Positions 57,148 through 58,184 of a stretch of DNA of 64,000 nucleotides are shown piece after piece. The stretch spans positions 124,001 through 188,000 of the forward strand of contig NZ_VWOJ01000003.1 of NCBI RefSeq assembly GCF_008630495.1. Reading direction: 5' to 3'. Position 1 is the stretch's first letter. Every line of letters starts with the position of its first letter. The position numbers and the translations under genes were made by a program. The stretch is from Alkalicaulis satelles. Its GTDB lineage: Bacteria > Pseudomonadota > Alphaproteobacteria > Caulobacterales > Maricaulaceae. The notes under the pieces were generated by a model. The model made no database searches, had not been told where the DNA came from, and saw only the letters and a program-made list of their open reading frames with translations.

Positions 57148-57262
57148 GCCCCCGCTGAACCGGGCCTCGCGCCCGCTCCGGCAAGCCGCTTTAGCTCAGC
57201 TGGTAGAGCAACGCATTCGTAATGCGTAGGTCGCGTGTTCGAGTCACGCAAGCGGCACCATT
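57148..57262 (+). repeat. 115-bp direct repeat, left copy (contains tRNA-Thr)
   Basis: This segment is identical to 58070-58184 as read by eye. It begins with GCCCCCGCTGAACCGG, covers 37 bases upstream of the tRNA and the whole tRNA-Thr gene, and ends two bases after its CCA. The copies are 922 bases apart. Confidence 0.9.
57185..57260 (+). tRNA. tRNA-Thr (anticodon CGT), copy 1
   Basis: A 76-base cloverleaf. Acceptor GCCGCTT pairs AAGCGGC, the D-arm is AGCTCAGCTGGTAGAGC, and the anticodon stem ACGCA/TGCGT has loop TTCGTAA (anticodon CGT). The T-arm has GTTCGAGTC, and the terminal CCA is encoded. It decodes ACG. A second identical gene lies 922 bases downstream. The 3' end overlaps the stop of the opposite-strand XRE gene remnant. 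Confidence 0.97.
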
Positions 57263-57501
57263 TTTCCACAAGCCCATGATTCCTTAGTGGATATAGCTCC
57301 AGAAACATCTTCCAGCAAAGCGTTGGGAGCGATCTTAACTGCAGTGACGAGGCGCTCGATGGCACCCAGGTTTGGGTTCCGTTCGGCTGCTTCAATCCCG
57401 CTGATGTAGGTTGTATGTAGCCCGTTGAGTTCGGCCAACGCCTCTTGCGTGAAGCCGAGCTCGCGTCGCCGCCACTGAACGCTGGGCTATCTCAGCCCCA
57501 T
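57244..57501 (-). pseudogene. XRE helix-turn-helix gene with an in-frame TAG at codon 5
   Basis: From ATG 57501 the frame reads MGLR, then TAG (57487-57489), then continues as a good XRE domain: RRRELGFTQEALAELNGLHTTYISGIEAAERNPNLG in sections, followed by IERLVTAVKIAPNALLEDV and a short tail. Only a TTG at 57438, inside the first DNA-binding helices, could restart it, and that would lose half the fold. Total would be about 85 residues. Its stop lies inside the tRNA-Thr gene. It is divergent from the PD-(D/E)XK-like gene, for which it was probably the regulator. A sequencing or real nonsense change cannot be distinguished here. Confidence 0.65.
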
Positions 57502-57533
57502 GGAGTACGAAAGAAGAACTGTGGAAGCTTTGG

Positions 57534-58058
57534 ATGTTGCCCACCGAAGCGGCGGCAGCTCAAGGAGTGCTCTTGCAAGATTTATCTCACGTTACTGTAG
57601 CCGAGCTTCTGAAGCTTCATTCCCAGATCGGAGAAGCGTTGCGGGCAAGGGGTGTGGTGCGCAGCGCCAACAATCCTACCGGCGACCTCGCCGAGTATCT
57701 GTTCTGCGCTGCCTTTGGCTGGAAGCAGGCTCCGAACTCCGAGCAAGGATATGATGCTACCGGCCCGGACGGGACGCGTTATCAGATCAAGGGGCGGCGG
57801 GTGCATCGACGAAACTCGTCGCGTCAGTTGTCGGCCATCCGCGATCTTTCGAGCCAGCACTTTGACGTGCTAGCAGGCGTGATCTTCGATGATGATTTCC
57901 GCGTGGTCAGGGCGGCGCTGATCCCGCGTGAGGTGGTGGAGGCGCGGTCGAAGTATATTGCGCACACCAACAGCCATAAATTCATACTGCGGGACGACGT
58001 CTGGTCGGCACCAGATGTTCAGGACGTGACCGCTGAAATTGCAGCGGCGATGCCTTAG
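57534..58058 (+). CDS. PD-(D/E)XK nuclease-like protein (DUF6998-type), substrate unknown
   Basis: A 174-residue protein. The helical N-terminus (VTVAELLKLHSQIGEALRARG) precedes a compact core. In the core Glu54 (GDLAEYLF), Asp74 (GYDATGPDG) and Gln84-Ile-Lys86 (YQIKGRR) are spaced like the catalytic residues of restriction-type PD-(D/E)XK nucleases, with a Q in place of D/E. No transport signal is present. The ATG at 57534 has GGAAG six bases upstream; a TTG at 57573 after AAGGAG would also suit the family. It is lower in GC than its neighbours and lies in the tRNA-bounded insert next to a helix-turn-helix gene. That pairing is reminiscent of controller-nuclease or small defence modules (inference). 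Confidence 0.65.
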   Translation: MLPTEAAAAQGVLLQDLSHVTVAELLKLHSQIGEALRARGVVRSANNPTGDLAEYLFCAAFGWKQAPNSEQGYDATGPDGTRYQIKGRRVHRRNSSRQLSAIRDLSSQHFDVLAGVIFDDDFRVVRAALIPREVVEARSKYIAHTNSHKFILRDDVWSAPDVQDVTAEIAAAMP

Positions 58059-58069
58059 ATCGTGTTCAT

Positions 58070-58184
58070 GCCCCCGCTGAACCGGGCCTCGCGCCCGCTC
58101 CGGCAAGCCGCTTTAGCTCAGCTGGTAGAGCAACGCATTCGTAATGCGTAGGTCGCGTGTTCGAGTCACGCAAGCGGCACCATT
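58070..58184 (+). repeat. 115-bp direct repeat, right copy (contains tRNA-Thr)
   Basis: Identical to 57148-57262 by eye, including the tRNA and 37 upstream bases. It starts 12 bases after the stop of the PD-(D/E)XK-like gene. Confidence 0.9.
58107..58182 (+). tRNA. tRNA-Thr (anticodon CGT), copy 2
   Basis: Identical in all 76 bases to copy 1, including anticodon CGT and encoded CCA. The duplicated upstream 37 bases probably provide the same promoter context, so both may be expressed. Confidence 0.97.

Follow-up and report, generated by a model that had tools for sequence, protein, structure and literature searches.

Restriction genes can reportedly insert with a long duplication of the target, as described by Nobusato et al. 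in 2000. For Helicobacter pylori, two papers describe restriction genes inserted in this way (PMC1643837, PMC3031569). We took as marks of such an event long direct repeats whose sequence is single, and without the insert, in relatives; as marks of a tRNA island made by an integrase, an integrase in or beside the element and a core repeat that covers part of the tRNA, usually towards its 3' end; and as marks of an R-M system with a C protein, an intact C gene and a C-box. Among methyl-dependent enzymes, Eco15I and NhoI are members of the BisI family and cut GCNGC bearing several 5mC or 5hmC (PMC11347163, PMC4926085). Eco15I has an XRE-type neighbour and BisI adjoins an inactive C5 MTase gene (PMC4926085), and EcoBLMcrX, located in a genomic island, has an 81-codon 'transcription regulator' as neighbour (PMC5487053). 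The locus analysed here, in a 64,000-nucleotide stretch of Alkalicaulis satelles DNA (the window), combines elements of these systems. We read it, with a probability of about 60%, as an integrase-less, horizontally acquired BisI mini-island at tRNA-Thr(CGT), whose arrival duplicated the resident tRNA unit of 115 bp minus its promoter.

Two direct repeats at 57148–57262 and 58070–58184 (plus strand) are identical at 115/115 positions with a spacing of 922, each consisting of 37 nt upstream, a 76-nt tRNA with encoded CCA and 2 nt. They enclose an insert of 807 bp (57263–58069) with a GC content of 0.572, compared with 0.670 for the window, and insert plus one repeat make a unit of 922 bp. The two tRNA-Thr(CGT) genes, at 57185–57260 and 58107–58182, scored 72.5 bits each with Rfam. 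The sequence-only reading had reported these repeats, complete tRNA-Thr genes with 37 upstream bases and an 807-bp insert of lower GC, and on re-measurement all of this proved exact. Since the next-longest direct repeat shown for 54000–62000 was 82 nt at 72%, an exact repeat of 115 bp lies far above chance. On the left, the locus is flanked by a gene of the uridine kinase/phosphoribulokinase family (56371–57051, plus strand) and on the right by a gene (58190–59092, minus strand) with no Pfam match above the cut-off, whose protein has two internal repeats of ~140 residues each and homologues in two relatives, G006 and G013. Copy 1 retains the native 5' flank and copy 2 the native 3' flank.

The plus-strand gene of the insert (57534–58058, an open frame of 174 aa that stops 11 bp before repeat copy 2) matched PADLOC's mREase_II model PDLC03212, which describes methyl-directed type II enzymes, at E 5.6e-68. 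Its only significant matches among solved structures were Eco15I (8q5m, E 1.5e-31) and NhoI (8q5n, E 1.9e-20); Pfam returned DUF6998, below the cut-off. Residues E54, D74, Q84 and K86 align gap-free (offset worked out by hand) with E49, D69, Q79 and K81 of Eco15I, whose change abolished activity (PMC11347163), and the catalytic Glu, Asp, Gln-X-Lys (PD-QXK) set is complete. These matches identify a BisI-family, 5mC-dependent (type IIM/IV-like) restriction endonuclease. What had been proposed as a PD-(D/E)XK-like nuclease is thereby borne out as a defence-family enzyme; far from being an orphan, it adds a member to a known family, with which it shares near full-length similarity, the catalytic E/D/Q/K and a small size. 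It differs from described members in having a divergent and broken regulator, in being enclosed with it by a tRNA duplication and in being known from sequence alone. Incoming DNA methylated at GCNGC-like sites should be cut and a partner methyltransferase would be unneeded; none was found in the insert, and the one C5 methyltransferase of the genome lies on another contig. The window has 17.5 GCNGC sites per kb, and if the endonuclease works, the genome's C5 methyltransferase must not create BisI targets.

The second gene of the insert, on the minus strand at 57244–57486, resembles an XRE/controller (C-protein) gene, matching PADLOC's Control_protein at E 2.1e-8 over 43 residues (profile positions 28–70 of 77). 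Like the C proteins of R-M systems such as that of the PvuII plasmid, it is related to the pPvu1 regulator (44.8% identity), but an in-frame TAG stands directly upstream of its conserved part, no methyltransferase gene accompanies it, and its own stop codon lies inside the left tRNA gene, read in antisense. C-boxes have the consensus GACT-N(2-5)-AGTC, which was absent from 57001–58300, where variant boxes would escape the search. The insert thus holds neither an intact C gene nor a recognisable C-box, and from its reading frame we judge the minus-strand gene to be non-functional.

The layout had also been likened to small regulator–nuclease defence modules, a comparison that proved weak. In its favour, other BisI enzymes have XRE-type neighbours, both in the literature and in plasmid regions with BisI-like genes, 3/5 of which have an annotated HTH gene nearby (none in the other 2/5). 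Against it, the regulator here is broken, and a tblastn search with the HTH fragment gave no convincing match in 52 loci with endonuclease homologues (best E 0.20), although a diverged regulator could escape. Matches to the HTH were present in 8 of 41 genomes, none above 42% except the window's own (63-residue fragment); compared directly, it did not align with the HTH of L129 and was 38% identical over 42 residues to that of L131. A recurrent regulator–nuclease module was therefore a weak candidate, which we set aside.

Comparison with relatives argues that the insert is an addition to a site that normally carries one tRNA. Taking the region around the best tRNA match from relatives gave 18 loci for comparison, and exactly one tRNA-Thr(CGT) was present in 18/18, with no DNA match to the insert in any of them. 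The kinase gene lies upstream of the tRNA in 17/18 (not found in G010), and right-flank genes occur in the same neighbourhood in 5/18 (G001, G006, G011, G012, G013), with one right-flank gene farther off in G007, G008, G014 and G026. In G013, the single tRNA is followed ~10 bp on by a right-flank homologue (54%). Members of the endonuclease family turned up in 1/61 genomes (the genome itself and 60 relatives; its own only) and, across the class, in 11/385, the last few at weak E-values. The empty-site comparison that the sequence-only reading had proposed thus came out in favour of an insertion at a tRNA gene: relatives do not all carry both tRNAs and the insert, and the locus shows long direct repeats of a sequence that is single and without the insert elsewhere. 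No same-species empty allele, circle or intermediate was seen, and the arrangement is known as a single instance.

We also searched the 76-base tRNA in 137 family genomes, 66 of which had a strong match (E 1e-16 or better) and 71 did not; among those 66, 65 have one tRNA-Thr(CGT) copy and this genome alone has two. That count bears on the suggestion that a tandem tRNA-Thr pair arose first and foreign DNA then fell between the copies. Such a history would explain the exact repeats without any link to the insertion, but no second copy exists in the 65 other strong-match genomes or the 18 loci, so that recombination between pre-existing tandem tRNA genes finds no support and is very unlikely. The genome itself has 42 tRNA matches, and each of the four close pairs inspected consists of tRNAs for two different amino acids. 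Nor was a second tRNA or tRNA fragment seen in G001 or G006, so the site as such does not entail a duplication. Assemblers can be confused by short identical repeats, but common sequencing reads are longer than the 115-bp repeat, the contig spans 310 kb of a genome with 0.36% contamination, and the endonuclease gene is present in 0/60 relatives; an assembly artefact is accordingly even less probable than a tandem origin.

The extent of the duplication is informative. Ahead of the left copy is a promoter-like pair of hexamers, TTGCCC and TAGTGT, 17 nt apart (57117–57145, plus strand), and several relatives have comparable hexamers ahead of their tRNA. Because a consensus scan of 57060–58300 found no promoter-like site, this pair included (below threshold), the call draws on conservation and spacing; a terminator scan of the same interval gave a single hit, within the endonuclease gene, which is about the yield of shuffled sequence. 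The duplicated unit starts 2 bp past the second hexamer, the likely -10 box, which ends at 57145, and ends 2 bp past the CCA, so that the right copy has no such promoter pair. The idea of a whole-gene duplication consequently stands for the leader and the complete tRNA, but the likely promoter was left out. With its likely promoter kept, the left copy should supply the tRNA, and the right copy is likely to be either silent or dependent on read-through. Ends so placed might suggest that the unit was copied from a pre-tRNA transcript. Transcription usually starts at a set distance from the -10 box, however, and by that spacing the unit begins ~3–6 nt upstream of the expected start site and would include untranscribed bases, which makes an RNA template the least credible of the explanations weighed.

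The leader further constrains where the second copy came from. G001 and G006 have the identical tRNA, which places the 6–7 differences of their 115-bp units (aligned part) in the leader. The two copies in the window carry one and the same leader, this genome's own and unlike that of these nearest relatives, which suggests that the second tRNA copy is probably recent and of local or same-species origin, unless gene conversion made the leaders alike, as it could have done.

Under the mini-island reading, foreign cargo would have landed directly 3' of a single-copy tRNA-Thr(CGT), a site that holds other defence or toxin–antitoxin cargo in some relatives. It could have arrived by insertion with long target duplication (route A) or by RecA-mediated integration of a circle, made of cargo and tRNA unit, from the same species (route B), and the same repeats should allow precise excision. 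tRNA-dependent carriage, as suggested earlier, is possible. With the C-type regulator decayed, the endonuclease would now be expressed without its regulator, perhaps by read-through from the tRNA promoter; this last step is one that we infer, since the promoter scan was empty for the insert but also missed the tRNA's own promoter. In a bolder extension, a defence cassette without an integrase would use the promoterless tRNA unit as its handle for moving, and RecA-excised circles of cargo and leader-tRNA would re-enter any same-species chromosome at its single tRNA-Thr(CGT), always leaving the working promoter and tRNA on the left. We hold this extension to be quite unlikely.

Cargo of comparable kind was recognised at this tRNA elsewhere. 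In G006, the DNA directly 3' of it codes for Fic (Pfam E 3.4e-19); in G001, it codes for a protein of 359 aa and one resembling HicA (E 0.00076, short of the Pfam cut-off); and in G023, it holds Cas genes, of which Cas7 was confirmed and the others were named by sequence reading. Overall, defence or toxin–antitoxin cargo was recognised in 3/18 relative loci; G011, G012 and G013 had none and no low-GC insert at the tRNA, G002 has low-GC DNA 3' of it, G003 has ordinary ORFs by eye, and the remaining ten loci were judged by GC alone. Three genomes were chosen for their partial tRNA copies: Cas9 (G052) and a type I HsdR (G038) are enclosed by the tRNA and a 3'-half copy 10–15 kb away, and these copies measure 45–46 bp in G036 and G038, with a similar stretch at 85% in G052. 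Together, the three genomes indicate that tRNA-Thr(CGT) is an integration target in this order with a usual copy of ~46 bp, and the site may be a defence hotspot there (five genomes; L088, L089, L104, L119, L120). In G036 (L117:18545-18754 and L118:1731-1776), a tRNA-Thr 5' half is followed ~100 bp on by a full tRNA, a 31-kb stretch with a tyrosine integrase and the 46-bp 3' half, and the element seems to bring its own complete tRNA.

This use of the site by integrases underlies the main rival explanation, in which the attachment region of a tyrosine-integrase island, or of a non-autonomous island mobilised by a helper integrase, contained a complete tRNA-Thr unit and a later deletion left only the cargo between attL and attR. 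The tRNA is an integrase target in the order (Arm/Phage_integrase in G036, 3'-half copies in G038 and G052), the right end of the repeat coincides with the tRNA 3' end as for integrases, a Defluviimonas locus (L052) has its BisI homologue between a 5' tRNA-Thr piece and a full tRNA-Thr(CGT), and L038 is a short tRNA-Ser island with no integrase seen. Defence-type cargo is likewise shared with the integrase islands examined. Yet the copies left by integrases at this tRNA comprise ~46 bp of the 3' half, whereas the repeat here comprises the leader and the whole tRNA; the leader of a foreign unit would be expected to differ, whereas both copies are identical and of the genome's own type. Of the marks of an integrase-made island, neither an integrase in or beside the element nor a partial-tRNA core repeat was found. 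As the sequence-only reading had noted, the insert has no integrase; only two genes were recognised in it, with no integrase remnant, and the whole genome has just three Phage_integrase matches, all on other contigs and two of them perhaps XerC and XerD. We consider an integrase origin with later deletion unlikely, and on one genome per species it is inseparable from the mini-island account that we favour.

The locus represents a variation on established routes by which genomes gain restriction genes, and the copying of a whole tRNA unit is unusual. As in insertions with long target duplication, a restriction gene lies between direct repeats of a target that is single in relatives. Here, however, the gene is that of a methyl-dependent enzyme without a methyltransferase instead of an R-M pair, and the target is a tRNA unit whose ends nearly match the tRNA transcript. 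The arrangement was not found in titles and opening lines of abstracts on tRNA islands with a complete tRNA or without an integrase, tycheposons, defence hotspots and tRNA duplication. The locus is thus a very small and sharply bounded example of a restriction gene gained with the duplication of a single-copy tRNA unit, and offers a testable case for the entry of defence genes at tRNA sites without an integrase of their own. Should the tRNA copies recombine and release the insert, this would provide a simple route for the gain and loss of immunity; otherwise, the locus is a well-described local curiosity.

Finally, we surveyed the surroundings of other BisI homologues, using the 52 homologous loci obtained from one scan of genome contigs, some of which end near the gene. 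These loci contain 11 tRNA genes, of which 10/11 point their 3' end at the endonuclease, in keeping with the mini-island reading, and 6/11 lie within 2 kb of it (binomial p 0.054, relatedness of loci uncorrected), so that nearness to a tRNA is by itself weak evidence; in the class search, 1/10 scanned loci had a tRNA, on a contig that is probably the same as that of L041. In just 2/52 loci does the gene lie between direct repeats no more than 4 kb away, neither pair being a whole tRNA, which counts against the favoured reading. One of the two is L038:2443-5171 in Allgaiera indica, where a ~2.4-kb island at a tRNA-Ser carries BisI-like and REase-ARP-type genes, with no integrase seen between repeats that are 77% identical and cover the tRNA end and some 190 bp downstream. 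L039, with a 46-bp tRNA-Asn copy, and L040, with a 15-bp tRNA-Ser copy, may each hold the gene within a larger island. At L052:3325-14436, in Defluviimonas salinarum, the BisI homologue lies between the 5' piece of tRNA-Thr and the full tRNA-Thr(CGT), beyond which is a weak tRNA-Thr 3' piece (76% over 50 bp). The endonuclease had no match in phage records; homologues were present in 119 plasmid records, and 11 putative viral contigs carried relatives at 63–64%.
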